64,000 nt of DNA, from contig NZ_LJZS01000007.1 of assembly GCF_001314875.1 (NCBI RefSeq), forward strand, positions 1 through 64,000, written 5' to 3'. The DNA is from Halomonas sp. HL-48. GTDB taxonomy: Bacteria; Pseudomonadota; Gammaproteobacteria; Pseudomonadales; Halomonadaceae. The position numbers and the translations under genes were made by a program. The notes beneath the pieces were generated by a model, which made no database searches, was not told the DNA's origin, and saw only the letters and a program-made list of their open reading frames with translations. Of this stretch, positions 46,206 through 58,630 are shown in pieces; within the stretch, counting starts at the first letter, position 1, and every line of letters begins with the position of its first letter.

Positions 46206-47201
46206 ATGAGGCCCTGCATGAACCGACGTAAACTATTGACGCTCGCCGTTGCCGCCAGTTCGCTGGCGGTGGCGTCTCTCAACGCCCAGGCTCGCGATTT
46301 CCGCCTGGGGCTGATTACGCCGGCCCAGCATTTGTGGTCCACCGAGGCCGAAGCCTTTGCCGAGTCGCTCAATGAGCGCTCCGACGGCGAGCATAGCGTG
46401 TCGGTCTTTCCCGCGCAGCAGTTGGGCAATGAAGCGCAGATGGTCCAGCAGTTGCAAAGCGGCGCGCTGGACATGGCGTTTCTGACCATTGCCGAAATTT
46501 CCAACCGGATTCCCGACTTCGGCGCGCTTTATGCGCCTTATCTAGTCGATGACGTCAACCATGCCGCACGCTTGCTGCGTTCGGACGCTGCCGGCGAGCT
46601 GCTCGACCTGATGCCGCAAGACGTCGGCCTGGTCGGGGTGGGCTACGGGATGGTGGGCATGCGCCAGGTGCTCAGCCGCGACCCGATCGAAAGCGCTGAG
46701 GACCTGGAAGGCCAGCGGCTGCGGATTACCCCGTTCGAGCCGATCCGAGATTTCTATACCGCGACCGGTGCTGCCCCGGCGCCGATGCCGCTGCTCGAAG
46801 TCTACGATGCCCTGGCCAACGGTCAGGTGGATGCCATCGACATGGATTTCGACTCGATCCTGATTCTCAAATTCTACGAGCAGGCCGATCACCTGCTGAT
46901 CTCCAACCACATGATGTTCCCCATGGTGGGCGTGGTGTCCGGTCGCGTATGGCGCGAGCTGTCTGAAGAGGATCGCGAGCTGATCGATACCACCATGGCC
47001 GAGCACCTGGAGAACGTGCTGGTGGGCTTTGAAGAAAAAGATGCCGCCCAGGAAGAAGAGATCCGCGAATTGGATATCAACATTGTTGAAGCGGACGCCG
47101 AGTTCTTTTCCGACGCGATAGCCGAGTGGGAAGCGATCTGGGAACCCAAGGCGCCCATGCTCGAGACGCTGCGCGAAGAAGCCGACCGCCTGCGCGAGTA
47201 A
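46206..47201 (+). CDS. TRAP transporter substrate-binding protein DctP
   Basis: signal peptide; GQRLRITPFEPIRDFYTATGAAPAPMPLLEVYDALANGQVDAID. Confidence 0.93.
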   Translation: MRPCMNRRKLLTLAVAASSLAVASLNAQARDFRLGLITPAQHLWSTEAEAFAESLNERSDGEHSVSVFPAQQLGNEAQMVQQLQSGALDMAFLTIAEISNRIPDFGALYAPYLVDDVNHAARLLRSDAAGELLDLMPQDVGLVGVGYGMVGMRQVLSRDPIESAEDLEGQRLRITPFEPIRDFYTATGAAPAPMPLLEVYDALANGQVDAIDMDFDSILILKFYEQADHLLISNHMMFPMVGVVSGRVWRELSEEDRELIDTTMAEHLENVLVGFEEKDAAQEEEIRELDINIVEADAEFFSDAIAEWEAIWEPKAPMLETLREEADRLRE

Positions 47202-47249
47202 GCAACGCCAGGATAACGCCACGACCACCGACAAGAGCCTTCGACCATC

Positions 47250-47813
47250 ATGCTGCAACGCCTTTCCTCGGGGCTTGCCCGCTGTGAAGAAATCGCCGCT
47301 GCGGCCCTGGCCGCGGTGGTCACCTGCCTGATCCTGATCAATATTGGCTTTCGTGTGCTGGGCAGCCCGCTGTACTGGATAAGCGAGCTGTCGATTTACG
47401 CGATGATCTGGATGACGTTTCTGATCGCGGGCGCGGTGTTCCGGCGACGCCAGGGGGTCGCGGTGACCCTGCTCAGCGACCTGCTGCCGCGCACCGGCCG
47501 CAAGCTGGTCGGCCTGTGGGTGGACACCACGGTGCTGCTGTTTGCCGTGCTGCTCGCCTGGCTGTGCTGGCGCTGGTATCAGCCGCTGGCACTGGCCCGG
47601 TTGGGGTTCGATATCGGGGCGTTTCAGACCCAAACGTTCAACTTCATTTACGCCGAGAACACTTCGACGCTGGGCATCAAAAAATTCTGGGCGTGGTTGA
47701 TCGTGCCGTGGTTTGCGCTCTCGCTTAGCCTGCACGGGCTTGCCAACCTCATCCAGTCGCTTACCCAGTGGCGTGACCCCGGCGACGAACCGACCGCCGA
47801 GACGTGGCGATGA
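47250..47813 (+). CDS. TRAP transporter small permease DctQ
   Basis: four-TM protein between DctP and DctM. Confidence 0.9.
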   Translation: MLQRLSSGLARCEEIAAAALAAVVTCLILINIGFRVLGSPLYWISELSIYAMIWMTFLIAGAVFRRRQGVAVTLLSDLLPRTGRKLVGLWVDTTVLLFAVLLAWLCWRWYQPLALARLGFDIGAFQTQTFNFIYAENTSTLGIKKFWAWLIVPWFALSLSLHGLANLIQSLTQWRDPGDEPTAETWR

Positions 47814-47829
47814 TACAGGCGATGTACCC

Positions 47830-49095
47830 ATGACCATTGCGATATTTGTCCTGCTTCTGCTGGGGGCCGTCCCCATTGCGCTGGTGCTCGCGCTGACGGC
47901 GATGGTCTACATTCAGGTCTCGGGCAATACGGTGCTGTTTGATTCCTACCCGCAGCAGCTGTTCAGCGCCATCGAAAGCTACGGCCTGCTGGCGATACCG
48001 CTGTTCATGCTGGCGGGTGAATTGATGAACGAGGGCGGCCTCACCAAGCGCTTGATTGCCCTTGCGCGCATTCTGGTGGGCGGCTTTCGTGGGGGGCTGG
48101 CCTACATCAACCTGGTCGCCAACATGATGATGGCGGCGATTATTGGCTCGGCGGCCTCGCAGATCGCCATCATGTCCCGCGCCATGGTGCCGGCCATGGA
48201 AGAAGAAGGCTACGACACCCCGTACAGCGCGGCGATTACCGCTGCGGGCGGCCTGTTGTCGCCAATCATCCCGCCCTCGATGCTGTTTGTGCTGTTCGGG
48301 GTGATGGCCCAGGTGCCGATTGCCGAAATGTTCATTGCCGGGCTTCTACCGGGACTGCTGCTGGGCGCGAGTTTTTTCATCGTGATTGCACTCGTGGGAC
48401 TGGTGCAGCAATACCCCAAAGGGCAGTGGCCCAGTCGCCGCCAGGCGCGGCACGATGCGCTATGGGGGCTGCCGGCACTGTTGATTCCGGTGATCATCAT
48501 CGGCGGCATTCTGTTGGGCATTGCCACGCCCACCGAGTCGGCGGCGCTGGCTTCTCTGGCGGCCTTACTCTTGGGCCGCTTTGTCTACGGCGATCTGCGT
48601 CTGGGGCAAATGCCCCAGATACTCAAGCGCACGGCGGTCAACGCCGGGCTGGTGATCATGCTGATCGCCGCGGCCGGGGTGTTTGGCTGGGTGGTGGTCT
48701 ACGAGCGCCTGCCGCAAATGGCGGCCGCGTGGATCGCCGCGCTCACCGCTGACCCCTTTGTCTTTCTGTTGATGGTGATTGGCGCGCTGCTGCTGGTGGG
48801 CATGGTGATCGACGGCATTGCCGCATTGATTCTGGTGGTGCCGATTCTGATGCCGATTGCGGAAAATCAGTTTGCCATCAGCCCCTATCAGTTTGGCGTG
48901 GTCGTCTGCCTGACCCTGGTGATGGGGCTGTTAACGCCCCCGGTGGGAGCGGGGTTGTTCATTGCCTCCTCGATGACCGGCGCGCCGCCGCTGAAAATCT
49001 TCCGCGCGCTGCTGCCGTTCCTGCTGGCCACGCTGGTGACGCTGGTGCTGCTTGCCTGGCTACCCTGGTTAACCAACGGGTTGATCAGCCGCTAG
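47830..49095 (+). CDS. TRAP transporter large permease DctM
   Basis: LAIPLFMLAGELMNEGGLTKRLI, GLLSPIIPPSMLFVLFG, ATPTESAALA; ATG at 47830. Confidence 0.95.
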   Translation: MTIAIFVLLLLGAVPIALVLALTAMVYIQVSGNTVLFDSYPQQLFSAIESYGLLAIPLFMLAGELMNEGGLTKRLIALARILVGGFRGGLAYINLVANMMMAAIIGSAASQIAIMSRAMVPAMEEEGYDTPYSAAITAAGGLLSPIIPPSMLFVLFGVMAQVPIAEMFIAGLLPGLLLGASFFIVIALVGLVQQYPKGQWPSRRQARHDALWGLPALLIPVIIIGGILLGIATPTESAALASLAALLLGRFVYGDLRLGQMPQILKRTAVNAGLVIMLIAAAGVFGWVVVYERLPQMAAAWIAALTADPFVFLLMVIGALLLVGMVIDGIAALILVVPILMPIAENQFAISPYQFGVVVCLTLVMGLLTPPVGAGLFIASSMTGAPPLKIFRALLPFLLATLVTLVLLAWLPWLTNGLISR

Positions 49096-49950
49096 CGGCA
49101 TGACATCCACCTCGACCTCAAGCTGGTGGTCGCCACCGCCGTTCATGACCCCCTTGAGCGGCGCCACATCGGCGTAATCACGCCCCCAGCCCAACACCGG
49201 ATGCTGCTCACCGGCGACGGTGCCGTTGGTCGGGTCCAGCGCCAGCCAGCCCCAGTCGGGGATCCAGGTAGCCAGCCAGGCATGGGAGGCATCCGCCCCC
49301 ACCAGACGTTGCTGACCGGGAGGCGGCTGGGTTTCCAGGTAGCCACTGACGTAACGCGCCGCCAGGCCAATCGAGCGCAGGGCGCCGATCGCGAGATGGG
49401 CGAAGTCCTGACACACGCCGCGCTGTTGGGCGAGCACATCGCTCAGCGGCGTGGCCAGGGTGGTGACGCTGGGGTCGTATTCGAAAGAGGCGTGGATCAG
49501 CTGGTTGAGGGCCAGCGCCGCCTCGACCACCGGGCGCCCCGGGGTAAAACAGCGCCGGGCGAACGCCGCCAGCGCCTCGTTACGGCGAATGAATGGCGAG
49601 TCCAGCCGGTATAGCTGGCGATCAAAATGGCTGTCGACGCTAAGCTGCTCGGCCACGCGTTCCCAGGCGGGAGAGTGGGCGGGCAACGGGCCCAGCGGCT
49701 GGGTGCTGATTGGCGTGACCACGGTGACGTCCAGGGCCTGGTGGAGGGTTTCCAGCGCGAAATACAGCACGCGATTGCCGAACACGTCGCGGCGTTCCGC
49801 CTGGGCGTCCGGTAGCGGATGAATGGTCAACGCCGAGGCGCCGCACTGCTGGTGCGGCGTCTTGCGCGGCAGTACCCGCGCTTCGCTATGGCATAGCGTC
49901 ACCGGCGCCGTATAGCGGTAGCGGGTGGTATGGCGCAGGGTGTAGTTCAT
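49069..49950 (-). CDS. transglutaminase family protein
   Basis: N-terminal LRHTTRYRYTAPVTLCHSEARVLPR; triad in RGVCQDFAH, DASHAWL, LDPTNG. Confidence 0.93.
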   Translation of the reverse strand: MNYTLRHTTRYRYTAPVTLCHSEARVLPRKTPHQQCGASALTIHPLPDAQAERRDVFGNRVLYFALETLHQALDVTVVTPISTQPLGPLPAHSPAWERVAEQLSVDSHFDRQLYRLDSPFIRRNEALAAFARRCFTPGRPVVEAALALNQLIHASFEYDPSVTTLATPLSDVLAQQRGVCQDFAHLAIGALRSIGLAARYVSGYLETQPPPGQQRLVGADASHAWLATWIPDWGWLALDPTNGTVAGEQHPVLGWGRDYADVAPLKGVMNGGGDHQLEVEVDVMPLAADQPVG

Positions 49951-52355
49951 GCGTCCGGCTCCATGCTGACCAGCTGGCGCGGCCGCTCGACATGGCTGAA
50001 GTGGCTATGACTGATGGCATCCGACAGCGCGCTCAGCGGCTCGATCAGGGCGTCGAGCAACTGCTCCAGTGCAAGTTGCGCCTCGGGGGTATCGGCCAGG
50101 TGGCTCAGGCGCTCGATATCGGCCAGGTGCAGCGCCGCATTGGCCTGAATCAGCAGCCGCCGCTCGGCGTTGCGGTAAGGCGATGAGCCGCCGGGTAAGC
50201 GGTCGATTTGCCGTTCGAGGCGCTTGAGCATGTAGCCCACCGAGCGCGGGTTGGTTTCATCGAACAGCAGCAGGTCGAGGATCGCGGCCGGGTGAAGTTC
50301 GCTGCGATAACGCCGCCGGTAGGCGGTAAAGTTATCGGTCGTGGCGAGGACCACCTCCCAAAGTGCCAGCCCCGGTGAGGGCGGCGCGTTCAGCGTCAGT
50401 TTGAGTAATGACAAAAGCCCCAGCACGCGATCCAGAAAACGCCCGATATCCATGAACCGCCAGCCGTAATGGTGGGGCATGGTTTCGTTGCACAGCCCAA
50501 AGAAGGCCGCCAGCTGCGCGGTAAGGTCTTCGCAGGCGCGCCGGGCAGCGCTGGCGTCATGACCTGGGTGCATCCCGCCGACCCGTTGGCGCAGCTGGTG
50601 GAGCACACGCCAGGAATCATCGCCCAGATGGTCGCGTATGCTGCGTGCGTTGCCCAGCAGCTGGGCGAACAGCGGCGCCAGCGCCTGGGGATGGCTATCG
50701 TCGAACTGGGCCAGCAGAGCGTCGCGTTTCTGGATAAACCCTACCAGCGGTGCCTTGCTGGGCTCGCCATCGGCGTCCCGGGTCGCAATGTCTAGTATCA
50801 GCAGCAGTTCATCGAGCAGCCGGTCGGCAATGTCATCCTGGTCGACTTCCAGTAGTCGCAACAGCGCTTCGCGCAGCAGGCGTGAACGCGCATCCAGGCG
50901 CTCGCCGTAGCGGCCCAGCCAGAACAGGCTTTCGGCTACGCGGCTGGGCAGGTCGGTGCCATCGCGGGTGGCGACCACCGGGCCTCGCGCCTGACGCAGC
51001 TGGCTGACGTGGGGCTGTGGCGTATCGGCGGTGATCCATACGTCTTTGACCACCGGGCTTGCCAGGGACGGCGAGCCGGGAGCGCCCACCCAGGCCAGCC
51101 CGCCAGGCATGACATGATAGTGGCTGGCATGATCGCTCGCGGCGCTGACGCTGCCTGGGGTGCGCGAGACAAAGCAGCGCAGGTTGAGCGGGGTCGGCGT
51201 CAGGCGCTGCATGTGGGTATCGAACACCGGAGCCGTGGCGGTCGGGGTGTACGAGTTAGCCCATTGCAGCAACAGGGGTTCGCCGAGCAGGTGCTCGCAC
51301 AGCGCCGGCAAGTAGTCGGCAAGCGCGGGGAGTTCCAGCACGCCGACGCCCAGCGCGTTGGAGATGGCCACGCCGCTGGACCGTGCCGCCTGCAGCAATC
51401 CCGGTACGCCCAGCTGTGAGTCGCCCCTCAACTCCAGCGGGTCGCAGTAGGCATCGTCACAGTGGCGCAGCACCACGTCCACCGCCTGCAGCCCGCCCAG
51501 CGTACGCAGCCACAGCTGGCTGTCGCGCACGACCATGTCCTGGCCTTCGGCGAGGTCGATGTTGAGATAGTTGGCCAGGTAGGCGTGCTCGAAATAACGC
51601 GGGCTGGCAGGCCCCGGCGTGAGCAGTACGACCTTGGGGTTGTCACGGTGTTGATAGGCCAGCACGGTAAGCGTGCGGTGATACTTGTCCAGGAAGCCCG
51701 CCAAGCGTTTTAACGGCGCGTTGCGGTACATCTCGGGCAGTGCCCGGGCCATCAGAATGCGGTTTTCCAGGGCAAAGCCGGTGCCCGAGGGCGCCTGGAG
51801 GCGGTCACCCATGACGCGCCACTGGCCCTTGGTATCCTGGATGACATCGACACCGTGGAAGTTGATCGCGGGTCGGTCGCTGGGCTTTGCGCCGTGACAG
51901 GGCAGTAGAAAATGCGGCGACGCCAGCATCGACTGGGTCGGCAACAGGCCCGCATCAAACAGCGTGCGGGCACCGTAGATATCCTGGTACAGGGCGTTGA
52001 ACAGCCGGCTTCGCTGGGTCACGCCGGCTTCCAGCGCCTGCCAGTGTGCCTGGTCGATCACCCAGGGCAGCGGGTCGAGTCGCCACGTGCGCCCCTGGGT
52101 ACCATCGTGCATATTGAAGATGACGCCGTTCTCGGCCAGCAGCCGCTGGATCTCGTCATGCTGTCGATGGCGGCCCTCCTTGCCCAACGCTTCCAGCGCG
52201 CCGATAAGGTTCGCCCAACCCGGGCGCAGGCGACCGTGGCGGTCGAGCAGCGCGTCAAAAGTGCCGGGCTGTCCCTTGCCTAGCTGATGCCGATAGTCCT
52301 CAACCAGCCCGGCAGTGCCGAGCTCGAGCGGTGAGGGGGAGACAGGGGCCGTCAT
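49947..52355 (-). CDS. fused circularly permuted ATP-grasp-like + alpha-E domain protein
   Basis: N-terminal ~460 aa ATP-grasp-like (TPGPASPRYFEHAYLANYLNIDLAEGQDMVV); C-terminal ~330 aa alpha-E (RVAESLFWLGRYGERLDARSRLLRE); start/stop overlap with 49950. Confidence 0.88.
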   Translation of the reverse strand: MTAPVSPSPLELGTAGLVEDYRHQLGKGQPGTFDALLDRHGRLRPGWANLIGALEALGKEGRHRQHDEIQRLLAENGVIFNMHDGTQGRTWRLDPLPWVIDQAHWQALEAGVTQRSRLFNALYQDIYGARTLFDAGLLPTQSMLASPHFLLPCHGAKPSDRPAINFHGVDVIQDTKGQWRVMGDRLQAPSGTGFALENRILMARALPEMYRNAPLKRLAGFLDKYHRTLTVLAYQHRDNPKVVLLTPGPASPRYFEHAYLANYLNIDLAEGQDMVVRDSQLWLRTLGGLQAVDVVLRHCDDAYCDPLELRGDSQLGVPGLLQAARSSGVAISNALGVGVLELPALADYLPALCEHLLGEPLLLQWANSYTPTATAPVFDTHMQRLTPTPLNLRCFVSRTPGSVSAASDHASHYHVMPGGLAWVGAPGSPSLASPVVKDVWITADTPQPHVSQLRQARGPVVATRDGTDLPSRVAESLFWLGRYGERLDARSRLLREALLRLLEVDQDDIADRLLDELLLILDIATRDADGEPSKAPLVGFIQKRDALLAQFDDSHPQALAPLFAQLLGNARSIRDHLGDDSWRVLHQLRQRVGGMHPGHDASAARRACEDLTAQLAAFFGLCNETMPHHYGWRFMDIGRFLDRVLGLLSLLKLTLNAPPSPGLALWEVVLATTDNFTAYRRRYRSELHPAAILDLLLFDETNPRSVGYMLKRLERQIDRLPGGSSPYRNAERRLLIQANAALHLADIERLSHLADTPEAQLALEQLLDALIEPLSALSDAISHSHFSHVERPRQLVSMEPDA

Positions 52356-52432: not shown

Positions 52433-55400
52433 TTAGCTTGGACACCAGCGTAAGTCCAGCGTGCAAGGCAGCTCCAGGCTGGGTATTTCCGACGGTGGTA
52501 CCTGGGTGCCATGGCGGTGTCCGCTTTCGCTGAAGCGTCCCAGGCGCCTTGCTTCTGCCTCGAAGGCGTTAACCGGGAAGGTATCAAAACTGCGCCCGGT
52601 GGGGTGCACTACATGATAGGTGCAGCCCGCCACGGAGCGCTGATTCCAGGTGTCGACCACGTCAAACACCAGTGGGGCGTGGACAGGAATCTGCGGGTGC
52701 AGCGCCGACGGCGGCTGCCAGGCCCGGTAGCGTACCCCGGCCACCGCCTCACCGTTACGCCCGGTGGAAGCGAGCGGTACGCGCCGCCCGTTACAGGTGA
52801 CCACGTAGCGGTCGCCGCTCATGCCGTTGACCTTGACCTCCAAACGCTCCACCGACGAGTCCACGTAGCGTGCGGTGCCTCCGGCAGAGGCTTCCTCGCC
52901 CAGCACGTGCCAGGGTTCGATGGCCTGACGCAGCTCGATATCCAGCATGGGGGTATGCAGCCGGCCATGCACCGGGAAGCGAAACTCGAGGAACGGCGCA
53001 AACCAGGCCAGATCGAAATCAAACCCATGATGACGCAGGTCGCCAAGGACGTCGTTCAGGTCTTCCCAGAGGTAATACGGCAGCATCCAGCGGTCCTGCA
53101 GGGCGCTACCCCAGCGCACCGGCTTGGCCCGGTAAGGGGTTTTCCAGCAGCGGGCGACCAATGCGCGAATCAGCAGCATCTGCATCAGGCCCATGCGGGC
53201 GTGGGGCGGCATTTCAAAGCCGCGTAGCTCCAGAAGCCCCAAACGGCCGCTGTCGCTGTCCGGCGAGTAGAGCTTGTCGATACAGAACTCGGCGCGGTGG
53301 GTATTGCCGGTCAGGTCGGTGAGCAGGTGGCGCAGCAGCCGATCGACCAGCCACGGCTGTACGACCTCGCCCTGGGGCATCTGCTGAAGGGCGATCTCCA
53401 GCTCGTAAAGTGCTTCGTGGCGCGCCTCATCTACCCGCGGTGCCTGGCTGGTGGGGCCGATGAACAGCCCTGAAAACAGATACGAAAGGCTGGGGTGGTG
53501 CTGCCAATAGGTGACCAGGCTGGCGAGCAGATCCGGGCGACGCAGAAACGGTGAATCCTCCGGCGTCACGCCGCCCAGGGTCACGTGGTTGCCGCCGCCG
53601 GTTCCCGTGTGGCGGCCATCGAGCATGAATTTCTCAGTACCCAGGCGCGCCTGTCGGGCCTCGTCGTAAAGCCGCTCGGTCTGCGCCACCAGGGTTTTCC
53701 AACTGGCCGCCGGCATGATGTTGACCTCGATCACGCCGGGGTCGGGGGTGATCATGAAGCTATCCAAGCGCGGGTCGCGGGGTGGGGCATAGCCTTCGAG
53801 CATCACCGGGCAGCCAAGATCGCGGGCGCACTCCTCAATGCTGCTGAGCAGATCCAGGTAGTGTTCAAGCTGGGTCAACGGCGGCAGGAAAATGTGTAAA
53901 CGTCCGTCCCGGGGCTCCACGCATAGGCTGGTGTGTATCACCTTGTGGTCGCGGTCGTTCTCGGCGCTGGGCTGCTGCTGAACGGCTTCGCCTTCGGGAT
54001 GACTCGAGCTTGGGTGCAGGCTTTGGCCGTGACGCTCGGCGCCGGTCAGGTGGGACTGCTCGGCGTGTCGCCTGGCCACTTCACCATGAATATCGCCAAT
54101 CTCGGGGCGGGGGGCAAACAGCGACTGTGGCTGCGGCTGGTCGTCCGGGTCAGCCCAAGGCAATGCCGACAGCGGCAGTCGCAGCCCCATGGGCGAGTCG
54201 CCGGGAACGAGATACAGCTGGTCGCGTTTTAGCGGCCAGTGACCGCTTTCCCAGCGGTGGGACTGAACAATCGAGTGGCGTAGCGGCAGGGCGTAGCCTA
54301 CTGCCGCGCCCAGGTCCTGTTCCAGCAGCCGGGCGAGACGGCGGCGCTCGGCGTCGTCTTTCAGATCAGCGTCGCGGGGGTCGACGCTTACCGGTAGGGT
54401 CTGCTCCTTCCACAGGTAGTAATAAACGTCCTCATAGGCTGGAATCCAGTGGCGTTCGGGCACGCCCAGCCGTTCGCTCAGCGCCAGGGTGAAGCGCTGG
54501 GCCATGGTATCGTCGGCTGTCACCTTGGGCGCGCCGTCCATGCAGGCGAGCCAATGCGGGTCGCGCCATAGCGGCACGCCATCCTTGCGCCAGTAGCAGG
54601 CAAGCGCCCAGCGCGGCAGCGGCTCACCGGGGTACCACTTGCCCTGTTGCTGCTGAATGACACTGCCCGGCGCAAAGGCGGCTTGCAGACGGGTCAGCAG
54701 CACCTCGGCGCGTTCGCGCTTGTGTTCACCCAGCGCTTCGGTGTTCCACTCGGGGCTCTCCATGTCGTCGAACGACACAAAGGTGGGCTCGCCGCCCATG
54801 GTCAGACGGACGTCCTGCTGGTTGAGCTCACTATCCACCTGATCGCCCAGCCGCAGGATCTGCTGCCACGCCTGATCGCTGTAGGGCTTGGTCACGCGCG
54901 GGTCTTCGTGGAGGCGCTCGACGCGCATTTCCACATCGAACTCGACCTCGCACTTATCCGAAAAGCCGGTGATCGCAGCGGCGCTGCCAGTGGTTGGCGT
55001 GGCCGCCAGGGGAATATGCCCTTCGCCGGCAAACAGGCCCGAGGTCGGGTCAAGCCCCACCCAGCCCGCACCGGGCAGGAAGACTTCGGTCCAGGCGTGG
55101 AGGTCGGTGAAATCCACATCGGTGCCGCTCGGGCCATCCAGCGCCTTGACGTCCGGGGTCAACTGGATCAGATAACCGGAGACAAAGCGCGCCGCCAGCC
55201 CCAGGTGGCGCAGTATCTGGACCATCAGCCAGGCACTGTCGCGGCAGGAGCCGCTACCCAGCGTCAGGGTTTCCTCGCAGCTCTGCACGCCCGGTTCCAT
55301 GCGCACCAGATAGCTGATGTCGTGCTGTAAACGCTGGTTGATGGCGACCAGGAAGTCGACGCTGGTGGTCGGCTCCAGGGACACATCCTTGAGCCACGCC

Positions 55401-55783
55401 ATCAGGCGCGGCCCGGCTTCGGTGACTTCCAGGTAAGGGCCGAGTTCCGCGCGCAGCGCGTCGGGGTAAGTAAACGGAATGGTCTGGGCGATGTCATCCA
55501 GGAAAAAATCAAACGGGTTGATCACCGTCATCGGGGCGATGAGTTCAACGGCAATGGTCAGCTCGCGCCGCGGCTCGGGGAAGACGATGCGCGCATTGAA
55601 ATTACCAAACGGGTCCTGCTGCCAGTTTACAAAATGATCGTCACCGGAAATGTTGAGCGAGTAGGCCTCGATGTGGGTGCGGCAGTGAGGGGCAGGGCGC
55701 AGACGGACCACATGCGGTGATAAGCGCACCGGTCGGTCAAAGCGGTAGGTCGTGTGATGGTGCAAGGCAACGCGAATGGTCAT
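52433..55783 (-). CDS. transglutaminase-like + DUF2126 protein
   Basis: LGSGSCRDSAWL, DLHAWTEV, LDPTSGLFAGEGHIPLAATP; DUF2126 region with MEGYAPPRDPRLDSFMITPDPGVIEVNIMP, GRHTGTGGGNHVTLGG. Confidence 0.93.
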   Translation of the reverse strand: MTIRVALHHHTTYRFDRPVRLSPHVVRLRPAPHCRTHIEAYSLNISGDDHFVNWQQDPFGNFNARIVFPEPRRELTIAVELIAPMTVINPFDFFLDDIAQTIPFTYPDALRAELGPYLEVTEAGPRLMAWLKDVSLEPTTSVDFLVAINQRLQHDISYLVRMEPGVQSCEETLTLGSGSCRDSAWLMVQILRHLGLAARFVSGYLIQLTPDVKALDGPSGTDVDFTDLHAWTEVFLPGAGWVGLDPTSGLFAGEGHIPLAATPTTGSAAAITGFSDKCEVEFDVEMRVERLHEDPRVTKPYSDQAWQQILRLGDQVDSELNQQDVRLTMGGEPTFVSFDDMESPEWNTEALGEHKRERAEVLLTRLQAAFAPGSVIQQQQGKWYPGEPLPRWALACYWRKDGVPLWRDPHWLACMDGAPKVTADDTMAQRFTLALSERLGVPERHWIPAYEDVYYYLWKEQTLPVSVDPRDADLKDDAERRRLARLLEQDLGAAVGYALPLRHSIVQSHRWESGHWPLKRDQLYLVPGDSPMGLRLPLSALPWADPDDQPQPQSLFAPRPEIGDIHGEVARRHAEQSHLTGAERHGQSLHPSSSHPEGEAVQQQPSAENDRDHKVIHTSLCVEPRDGRLHIFLPPLTQLEHYLDLLSSIEECARDLGCPVMLEGYAPPRDPRLDSFMITPDPGVIEVNIMPAASWKTLVAQTERLYDEARQARLGTEKFMLDGRHTGTGGGNHVTLGGVTPEDSPFLRRPDLLASLVTYWQHHPSLSYLFSGLFIGPTSQAPRVDEARHEALYELEIALQQMPQGEVVQPWLVDRLLRHLLTDLTGNTHRAEFCIDKLYSPDSDSGRLGLLELRGFEMPPHARMGLMQMLLIRALVARCWKTPYRAKPVRWGSALQDRWMLPYYLWEDLNDVLGDLRHHGFDFDLAWFAPFLEFRFPVHGRLHTPMLDIELRQAIEPWHVLGEEASAGGTARYVDSSVERLEVKVNGMSGDRYVVTCNGRRVPLASTGRNGEAVAGVRYRAWQPPSALHPQIPVHAPLVFDVVDTWNQRSVAGCTYHVVHPTGRSFDTFPVNAFEAEARRLGRFSESGHRHGTQVPPSEIPSLELPCTLDLRWCPS

Positions 55784-55842
55784 AAGCCACCCTCATGAAA
55801 GCCGGAATCAACCGAAAGCCGGTTAAAAATTAGGTTATTACT

Positions 55843-55858
55843 CGCAAGTATCGTTCCA
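55843..55858 (-). promoter_or_regulatory. putative sigma-54 (-24/-12) promoter for the 55783 transglutaminase/DUF2126 arm
   Basis: minus strand reads AAAAC-TGGAACG-ATAC-TTGCG; GG-N10-GC spacing; consensus TGGCACG-N4-TTGCW; 60 nt upstream of ATG. Confidence 0.6.
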
Positions 55859-56035
55859 GTTTTACTTTTTTGCAGCTGTCATTGCCGTTAAGCCGTTTAA
55901 GTAAGGTGTAAAACGGTTTTTGCACTAAAAAGAGGAAGTTTATGCACCGCTATAAAGCGTTTATTTCATAAACCGGCCCAATAAAGACGACGTTTTAAGC
56001 GCGTAGCTGTTTGAACGTTGAAAAAGCGCAAAAGA

Positions 56036-56051
56036 TGGTACGTATATTGCT
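56036..56051 (+). promoter_or_regulatory. putative sigma-54 (-24/-12) promoter for the 56138 ATP-grasp arm
   Basis: TGGTACG-TATA-TTGCT; GG-N10-GC spacing; one mismatch to TGGCACG-N4-TTGCW; 87 nt upstream of ATG. Confidence 0.65.
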
Positions 56052-56137
56052 GAGTTTGTTTACCCGTTTTTGGGCGCGACCTGCCTAAACTGATAGTCAA
56101 GCAGCCGCCGTCCTTCCCCTGCGCCAGGAGAGCGCCC

Positions 56138-57622
56138 ATGAGCCAAGTGAATTGGAATAACTATGCGTGTAGCGATTATTACGATGAACTGATGGCGGCA
56201 CCCGGCAGCCCCCGCGCGTCGGCAGGTGAGCTTTGCAATATGCTGGCGCGGTTCACGGCCGATGAGCTGGCCGAGCGTAAAACCGCTGCAGAAATCGCCA
56301 TTCGCACTATGGGCATCACTTTCACGGTGTATTCAGAAGGCGCCATGATCGATCGCGCCTGGCCGTTTGATATTGTGCCGCGCATTATTCCCGCCCATGA
56401 GTGGCGCAAAACCGAGGCGGGATTAAAGCAGCGCGTTCAGGCGCTCAACTTGTTTATCGACGATCTTTACCACGAGCAGAAAGTGGTCAAGGACAAGGTG
56501 TTGCCCGCCGAAGTACTGGCGCAGTCGGTTAACTTCCGCCCCCAGTGCGTGGGTATCAACCCGCCCCACGGCGTCTGGGCGCATATTTGCGGCTCCGATC
56601 TGGTCCGCGGCGGTGACGGGACCCTTTACGTGCTGGAAGACAACCTGCGCATCCCCTCCGGCGTCTCCTACATGCTCGAAAACCGCAACGTGACCAAACG
56701 TGTGCTGCCGGAGCTGTTTGCCTCTGGCAAGATCTTGCCCGTGGATGACTACGTGGCGCAGCTTTACGACATGCTGGCGGCCATGTCGCCACGCCCGGGC
56801 GACGAGCCACAGGTCGTGGTGCTGACCCCGGGGATCTACAACTCGGCGTATTTCGAGCACGCTTATCTGGCGCAGCAGATGGGTGTCGAACTGGTACAGG
56901 GCAGCGACCTGCTGGTGGATGACGATGACGTGGTCTACATGCGCACCGTGGAAGGGCTGCGGCGGGTGGACGTGATTTACCGACGCGTGGACGACGAATT
57001 TCTCGATCCCGAGGCCTTCAATCCAAACTCCATGCTGGGGGTGGCGGGCCTGATGCGTGCCTGGCGGTCGGGTAAGGTGGCCCTGGCCAATGCCCCGGGG
57101 GCCGGGGTCGCCGACGACAAGGTGGTTTACGCCTTCGTGCCCGAGTTGATTCGTTATTACCTGGATGAACAACCGCTGCTGCCCAACGTGCCCAGCTATT
57201 TGTGCATGTTCGAAGACGACCGCAAGTATGTGCTCGAACACCTGGACGAGCTGGTCGTGAAACCAGCCAACGAATCCGGTGGCTACGGCATGCTGATCGG
57301 CCCGCGCTCAACCAAAGAGACCCGTGACCAGTTCGTCGAGTTGATCAACGCCAATCCGCGTAACTACATGGCCCAGCCAACGCTTGCGCTGTCGACCACG
57401 CCGACGCTGGCCAATGGCCTGCCTCAGCCGCGCCATGTCGACCTGCGACCGTTTATTCTGTCCGGCCCTGAGACGCATGTAACGACCGGGGGCTTGACCC
57501 GTGTGGCGCTGGTGGAAGGCTCGCTGGTGGTCAATTCGTCCCAGGGAGGCGGCAGCAAGGACACCTGGATTGTCGAAACCGAGGATCACCCCGCGGCCGC
57601 CGCCGAGCGGACAGGAGCCTAG
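56138..57622 (+). CDS. circularly permuted type 2 ATP-grasp protein
   Basis: LDELVVKPANESGGYGMLIGP, NPRNYMAQPTLALST, SSQGGGSKDTWIVE. Confidence 0.95.
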   Translation: MSQVNWNNYACSDYYDELMAAPGSPRASAGELCNMLARFTADELAERKTAAEIAIRTMGITFTVYSEGAMIDRAWPFDIVPRIIPAHEWRKTEAGLKQRVQALNLFIDDLYHEQKVVKDKVLPAEVLAQSVNFRPQCVGINPPHGVWAHICGSDLVRGGDGTLYVLEDNLRIPSGVSYMLENRNVTKRVLPELFASGKILPVDDYVAQLYDMLAAMSPRPGDEPQVVVLTPGIYNSAYFEHAYLAQQMGVELVQGSDLLVDDDDVVYMRTVEGLRRVDVIYRRVDDEFLDPEAFNPNSMLGVAGLMRAWRSGKVALANAPGAGVADDKVVYAFVPELIRYYLDEQPLLPNVPSYLCMFEDDRKYVLEHLDELVVKPANESGGYGMLIGPRSTKETRDQFVELINANPRNYMAQPTLALSTTPTLANGLPQPRHVDLRPFILSGPETHVTTGGLTRVALVEGSLVVNSSQGGGSKDTWIVETEDHPAAAAERTGA

Positions 57623-57625
57623 CCC

Positions 57626-58630
57626 ATGCTGTCACGCGTCGCAGAAAACCTTTACTGGATGGCCCGTTATATCGAACGCGCCGAGGACACCGCGCGGTTA
57701 TTGAGCGTCAACAGTCACCTGATGCTGGATTTGCCTCGGCATCTGCCGCTTGGCTGGGGGCCGCTGATTGAAATGACCGGCACGCTCGAGGCATTCACGG
57801 AACGCCATGGTGACTTTGATGAGCGCAGCGTGGTGCACTTCTTGTGCGCCGATACCCAAAGCGGCAGCTCGATTCTTTCCGCCCTGGCCAGCGCCCGTGA
57901 AAACCTGCGCACCACCCGCGATGTGGTGCCCCGCGAGATATGGGAAGAGGTCAATCAGCTCTACCTGAGCGTTGCCGATCACGCCGAGAACGGCGTCAGC
58001 CCGCGACGTCGCGATGCTTTTTTGAAAAGCGTCATTCGTGGCTGCCAGACCCTGACCGGGCTGATCGAAGGTACGTTGAGCCACGGCCCGGCACGTACCT
58101 TCATTGAGCTTGGGCGCCAGCTGGAGCGGGTCGACATGACCACACGGATCGTCGACGTGCGCTCGGCGAGTCTGCTGCCGCAAAATCCCGAAGAACTGTT
58201 GCCGTTCGAAAACCTGCAGTGGATGAGCGTGCTGAAGTCGCTGACCGCCTACCAGATGTATCGCCAGCAGGTGCGCCTGCGCGTTCGCGGCCCGGATGTG
58301 CTGCGCTTTCTGCTTCAGGATCCCAATCTGCCGCGCTCTATCGCCTGCAGCCTGGAAACCTTGGGCCACGAGCTGCAGTTATTGCCCAGGCAGGACCGCG
58401 TGGCCGCCACCGTCTCGCTGGTGAGGGCGGATGTGGTGGATGCCGACATCCAGGCGCTGGCCCACTCGCCAAGCAAGCTGCACGCCTTTGTCGACGAGCT
58501 GCAGATTGGTTTTGCAGCGATTCACGACACCCTGAGCGCCACCTATTTTGTCAGTGCCGACAGCATTCCCCATGTGACCCAGCGGCAAACCCAGAGTCAT
58601 GCTGGCGATCAGGATATCGACGACGACTGA
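57626..58630 (+). CDS. alpha-E domain-containing protein
   Basis: MLSRVAENLYWMARYIERAEDTARLLSVNSHLMLD. Confidence 0.95.
   Translation: MLSRVAENLYWMARYIERAEDTARLLSVNSHLMLDLPRHLPLGWGPLIEMTGTLEAFTERHGDFDERSVVHFLCADTQSGSSILSALASARENLRTTRDVVPREIWEEVNQLYLSVADHAENGVSPRRRDAFLKSVIRGCQTLTGLIEGTLSHGPARTFIELGRQLERVDMTTRIVDVRSASLLPQNPEELLPFENLQWMSVLKSLTAYQMYRQQVRLRVRGPDVLRFLLQDPNLPRSIACSLETLGHELQLLPRQDRVAATVSLVRADVVDADIQALAHSPSKLHAFVDELQIGFAAIHDTLSATYFVSADSIPHVTQRQTQSHAGDQDIDDD

Follow-up and report, generated by a model that had tools for sequence, protein, structure and literature searches.

In an ntrC mutant of Burkholderia cenocepacia, expression of the genes for DUF404/407, DUF403, a transglutaminase and a large transglutaminase protein is reduced 8.2-, 9.4-, 9.4- and 6.0-fold, respectively, and these genes are named among the targets common to NtrC and σ54 (PMC5491218). 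DUF404/407 corresponds to the circularly permuted (CP) ATP-grasp family and DUF403 to Alpha-E. The cluster in strain H111 (I35_5080-5083) encodes the same families as the locus of Halomonas sp. HL-48 analysed here, and its large transglutaminase protein is probably a transglutaminase-DUF2126 protein. The parts of the report considered describe neither a promoter map nor a shared enhancer for the H111 cluster (PMC5491218), whereas both can be predicted for HL-48.

CP-ATP-grasp, Alpha-E and transglutaminase genes also occur in the operon of Anbu, a bacterial proteasome-like protein, for example PP_2685-2688 of Pseudomonas putida (PMC7801951, PMC8050072, PMC6376114). This operon is induced by nitrogen limitation, and the induction is ascribed to NtrB/NtrC as the proposed regulator (PMC7801951). 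Of its promoters, the one preceding the CP-ATP-grasp gene PP_2688 responds to nitrogen (3.7-fold), but the one preceding PP_2685 does not (PMC8050072). A table in PMC7801951 lists PP_2685-2688 and the urt genes as still induced in a P. putida rpoN mutant, which counts against the σ54 reading proposed below. The proteasome-type protease family COG3484 appears in a survey of predicted σ54 regulons (PMC12316311), and a marine metagenome study ties these domains to urea metabolism (PMC3597751). In contrast to the Anbu operon, the HL-48 locus has DUF2126, a CP-ATP-grasp-Alpha-E fusion and, as predicted, two divergent transcripts rather than one operon. The sole proteasome-family match in the HL-48 genome is HslV, which lies beside HslU. 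Since the genome has no Anbu gene, degradation by Anbu is not the partner step here.

The paradigm of a promoter with NtrC enhancers is the enteric glnAp2. At glnA in the genome analysed here (L092), as in the HL-48 gap, GCAC-N7-GTGC sites lie upstream of the -24/-12 promoter. However, glnA has one promoter, while the HL-48 gap has two that face away from one enhancer pair.

This 354-bp gap (55784-56137) separates two divergent gene arms on contig NZ_LJZS01000007.1. Its two outward-facing σ54 promoters, with NtrC-type sites between them, make it very probable that nitrogen shortage turns on the entire locus at once. We are confident in reading the gap as a bidirectional, nitrogen-controlled σ54 regulatory region, through which NtrC would raise both arms together.

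Layout of the locus and its two predicted σ54 promoters

The genes and predicted regulatory elements of the locus lie in the window, by which we mean the whole 64-kb stretch of DNA analysed (Table 1).

Table 1. Coordinates of the genes and predicted regulatory elements at the HL-48 locus
Feature	Position	Strand	Details
Second transglutaminase-like protein	49069..49950	-	Left arm; 4-base overlap with preceding gene
CP-ATP-grasp (partial domain match) fused to Alpha-E	49947..52355	-	Left arm
Transglutaminase-DUF2126 putative amidoligase	52433..55783	-	PF08379, PF01841, PF09899; left arm, gene 1
Left-hand σ54 promoter (predicted)	55843..55858	-	TGGAACGATACTTGCG; -24 GG 55857-55856, -12 GC 55845-55844
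Conserved left core	55846..55876	-	AGTATCG and TTTTTTGCAG (read on +); overlaps left σ54 site
NtrC-type site 1 (predicted)	55921..55937	+	TGCACTAAAAAGAGGAA; left half-site alone intact; 6.3 bits
NtrC-type site 2 (predicted)	55943..55959	+	TGCACCGCTATAAAGCG; 9.6 bits (p = 0.025, shuffled controls); spaced 22 bp from site 1
Conserved block just 5' of right-hand -24 box	56014..56028	+	56014-56023: 1.1 changes per column (41 taxa) against 8.85 mid-gap
Right-hand σ54 promoter (predicted)	56036..56051	+	TGGTACGTATATTGCT; -24 GG 56037-56038, -12 GC 56049-56050
CP-ATP-grasp protein	56138..57622	+	PF14403/PF04174; right arm, gene 1
Alpha-E protein	57626..58630	+	PF04168; right arm, gene 2

NCBIfam supplied no informative name for the proteins of the locus. 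The translation of the transglutaminase-DUF2126 gene shows the transglutaminase triad (Cys, His and Asp). Across the transglutaminase-like proteins, the translations keep these residues at the expected motifs; judged from sequence, the proteins are candidates for cutting or transferring amide bonds. The CP-ATP-grasp domain of the fusion protein matches positions 1-274 of the 374 in the Pfam model before Alpha-E begins, so this domain is possibly catalytically incomplete.

Other genes adjoin both arms. A gene for a zinc-ribbon putative metallopeptidase (PF15887, PF10005; 58609-59685, -) is convergent with the right arm and at its end shares 22 bases with the Alpha-E gene. A TRAP-type transporter set (46206-49095) borders the left arm; from the translations, it comprises a binding protein and small and large membrane subunits.

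We found the two outward-facing σ54 sites, both with GG-N10-GC spacing, exactly where a sequence-only reading of this DNA had placed them. Both sites have the context of the σ54 consensus TGGCACG-N4-TTGCW. When TGGNACG-N4-TTGCW was used as the pattern, the right-hand site had no mismatch and was among just three perfect matches in the 3.55-Mb genome, and the left-hand site had one mismatch, at its last base. Start sites were placed by counting the C of GC as -12, which puts the right start at ~56062 (+) and the left start at ~55832 (-). The resulting 5' UTRs are ~76 nt (right) and ~49 nt (left). Ribosome-binding sites (AGGAG, GAGG) are present at the ATGs of both arms, and no terminator was found in the gap.

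Conservation of the two promoters in the genus

The gap was compared with its orthologues in the genus, where the named relatives are Vreelandella and Halomonas; V. boliviensis and V. titanicae are among the species that carry the locus. The ATP-grasp gene was present in 49 of 82 genomes and the gap was extracted from 47; changes were counted on a 41-taxon tree made from flanking coding DNA. The sequence-only reading had named conservation of GG and GC in orthologous gaps beforehand as a test of its claim. For the right-hand site this conservation was observed, as GG/GC is kept in 42 of the 47 gaps, although the orthologues are related and counts in the genus and beyond are not independent events. 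The exceptions are five genomes (L040-L044) that form a single group on the tree. Over the 41 taxa the four GG/GC columns show 0 changes, compared with 5.25 changes per column in the N4 spacer, 4.6 in the downstream flank and 8.85 in mid-gap. The absence of change at GG/GC beside a variable spacer and variable flanks is the signature of a -24/-12 promoter at the right-hand site.

The gap also holds two strongly conserved blocks that lie outside the σ54 and NtrC sites, one at 56014-56023 and a second at 55892-55911. These are possibly sites for a bending protein or a repressor.

Rearranged genes were seen at some orthologous loci. At L007, L008 and L009 (genomes G043, G003 and G080) the distance to the second ATP-grasp gene is ~3 kb shorter, and the left-arm gene there seems to have lost its DUF2126 part but kept its transglutaminase part, with the regulatory gap still present. 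At G007:C1:2954207-2957216 the ATP-grasp gene is in two pieces ~1.5 kb apart, consistent with an insertion.

The left-hand site gave a different result. Here GG/GC is kept in only 25 of the 47 gaps and lost in the remainder. Within those 25 taxa GG/GC shows 0 changes though adjacent bases vary; over all 41 taxa GG/GC changes and the spacer core does not. Since the 25 genomes that retain GG/GC fall in two separate parts of the tree, loss in a 16-genome clade is simpler than two gains. V. stevensii is one example of a genome from the clade without the left GG/GC. Thus the earlier claim that σ54 drives both arms stands for HL-48 and its subclade, but it does not extend to the whole genus, about half of which has lost the left GG/GC.

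The left σ54 site overlaps a conserved core. Both AGTATCG and TTTTTTGCAG are near-invariant across the 41 taxa, including those that have lost GG/GC, and they are still present in the 16-genome clade and in the majority of the five outliers. Persistence where GG/GC is gone marks the core as a further element, and it is possible that it is an overlapping non-σ54 promoter or a regulator site. The left arm may therefore use another promoter as well, or may use only that one where GG/GC has been lost. The core was rejected as a recurring regulon motif, the combined motif having no second match in the genome at ≤2 mismatches.

Tentatively, the left promoter may be composite, with the σ54 site laid exactly over the CGATACT and A-tract core. 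In that case σ54 and another holoenzyme would compete, and the DUF2126 arm would answer to nitrogen and another signal, the ATP-grasp arm to nitrogen alone. We consider this possible but doubtful. It is unlikely that the right arm alone is controlled by σ54 and NtrC, with the left 16-mer mimicking a σ54 site because the DUF2126 gene has a housekeeping or stress σ promoter whose -10 region is CGATACT with its upstream A-tract. CGATACT does resemble a σ70/σS -10 element, and the near-invariance of the core even where GG/GC is gone would suit such a promoter. Against mimicry, GG and GC stay unchanged in 25 genomes among varying neighbours, and at locus L157, from another genus of the family, the left 16-mer has GG/GC and no A-tract at that spacing. 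A scan of 55700-56200 found no σ70-type promoter, and outward σ54 sites with different spacers recur at divergent loci elsewhere, as described below. For HL-48 we prefer the reading in which σ54 serves both arms.

NtrC-type sites and the candidate activator

NtrC-type sites were scored with a matrix trained solely on 30 glnA promoters of the genus, with p values taken against shuffles. Two sites of the GCAC-N7-GTGC type were found between the promoters. Their centres lie upstream of both starts, at ~111 and 133 bp from the right one and 119 and 97 bp from the left one. Both are weak compared with the ~14-22 bits of glnA sites, and their right halves are poor. The GCAC of site 1 shows 0 changes in 25 taxa, and relatives have perfect GCAC-N7-GTGC palindromes at the orthologous position of site 2. 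We found an NtrC site at p < 0.05 in 39 of the 47 orthologous gaps, usually as two sites 22-24 bp apart and in the same place between the promoters. Some of these are the exact reverse complement of the glnA site of the HL-48 genome itself (GCACTATTTTGGTGC). No NtrC site was found in any of the five genomes that have lost the right-hand promoter. Because some perfect GCAC-N7-GTGC matches in the genome fall in coding regions (for example C6:75145), we did not rely on the palindrome by itself.

The genome has a complete glnA-ntrB-ntrC locus, in which the σ54 promoter of glnA is preceded by the same motif (GCACCAAAATAGTGC; TGGCACGTAAACTGCA). Its NtrC is intact and bears GAFTGA, the motif needed for contact with σ54, and there is a single, intact rpoN. 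The sequence-only reading had proposed that one enhancer-binding protein switches on the whole system, with nitrogen or stress control as examples. Our data support this and narrow it to NtrC: the sites predicted between the promoters with the glnA matrix, the glnA-ntrB-ntrC locus and rpoN, and the dependence published for B. cenocepacia (PMC5491218) together give good support for NtrC as the activator.

Both promoters could also depend on σ54 but answer to some other enhancer-binding protein and another signal (envelope or osmotic stress, for instance). The genome encodes about seven further proteins of this kind, and the weakness of the NtrC sites in the window would fit such an activator. 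We nevertheless find it quite improbable, as what is conserved between the promoters is the NtrC motif of glnA, recovered by a matrix that had been given glnA promoters only. A local enhancer-binding protein was also considered and rejected, there being no gene for one on the locus contig, and the same gene families depend on ntrC in Burkholderia (PMC5491218).

If NtrC is the activator, nitrogen shortage would cause phosphorylated NtrC to bind the paired sites (55921-55959), ~97-133 bp upstream of both starts. Bound NtrC would oligomerise and loop the DNA, and its ATP hydrolysis would open the σ54 polymerase waiting at each of the two promoters. The rightward transcript would then carry the CP-ATP-grasp and Alpha-E genes, and the leftward transcript the genes for transglutaminase-DUF2126, the CP-ATP-grasp-Alpha-E fusion and the second transglutaminase. 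The enzymes may handle amide or peptide nitrogen during starvation.

Loci outside the genus and meaning of the arrangement

The bare σ54 pattern is not enriched. At ≤2 mismatches the 64-kb window has 28 matches against 39 expected, and at ≤1 mismatch the genome has 79 against 132 for a reversed control pattern. The sites alone would therefore prove little. What is notable is the presence of two good outward-facing sites within one 354-bp gap. Among 3000 dinucleotide shuffles of the gap, one had an equally good + site and none had both sites.

We also examined more distant loci. In members of the class outside the family, the DNA preceding the ATP-grasp gene was compared at 55 loci, and 20 of these had a correctly oriented σ54 site, compared with 1.2 in shuffles and 4 in the wrong orientation. 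An NtrC site was present at 12 of the 55 (shuffles 1.2), and nine had both (shuffles 0.025). Divergent DUF2126/ATP-grasp gaps from named records outside the genus gave a similar comparison with shuffles: 29 of 37 had the right-hand site, 19 had the left-hand site and 17 had both, where shuffles predict 0.8, 0.8 and 0.03. The distances between these sites and the start codons are for the most part steady. The facing pair was found, for example, in Nitrincola tibetensis, Halopseudomonas pachastrellae, Pseudohongiella, Plasticicumulans lactativorans and Contendobacter, and in N. tibetensis an NtrC site (TGCACTATTTTGGTGCT) lies between the two σ54 sites. The presence of the facing pair in 17 of 37 gaps outside the genus indicates that the divergent arrangement is old. 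In most other sampled genera of the family the gap is short and lacks both σ54 and NtrC sites, so this control is not universal and the genes can be retained without it.

It is hardly credible that AT-rich intergenic DNA produced the HL-48 sites by chance, even though the pattern at one to two mismatches is no commoner than controls in window or genome, since the shuffles did not yield the pair, the facing pair recurs in other families, and for the right-hand site chance is refuted by the unchanged GG/GC on the tree together with the shuffles.

The ntrC mutant data from B. cenocepacia and the induction by nitrogen limitation in P. putida agree with our reading, so this kind of control is already known. 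New here are the site-level anatomy, the predicted shared enhancer and the depth of conservation, with the divergent arrangement kept from Vreelandella to Nitrincola, Halopseudomonas, Pseudohongiella and Contendobacter. The promoter pair offers a clean readout, and its control gives condition-specific access to an enzyme system yet to be characterised. One nitrogen-starvation switch for both arms would tell when, and in which growth condition, to seek the product of CP-ATP-grasp/Alpha-E/transglutaminase/DUF2126 systems.
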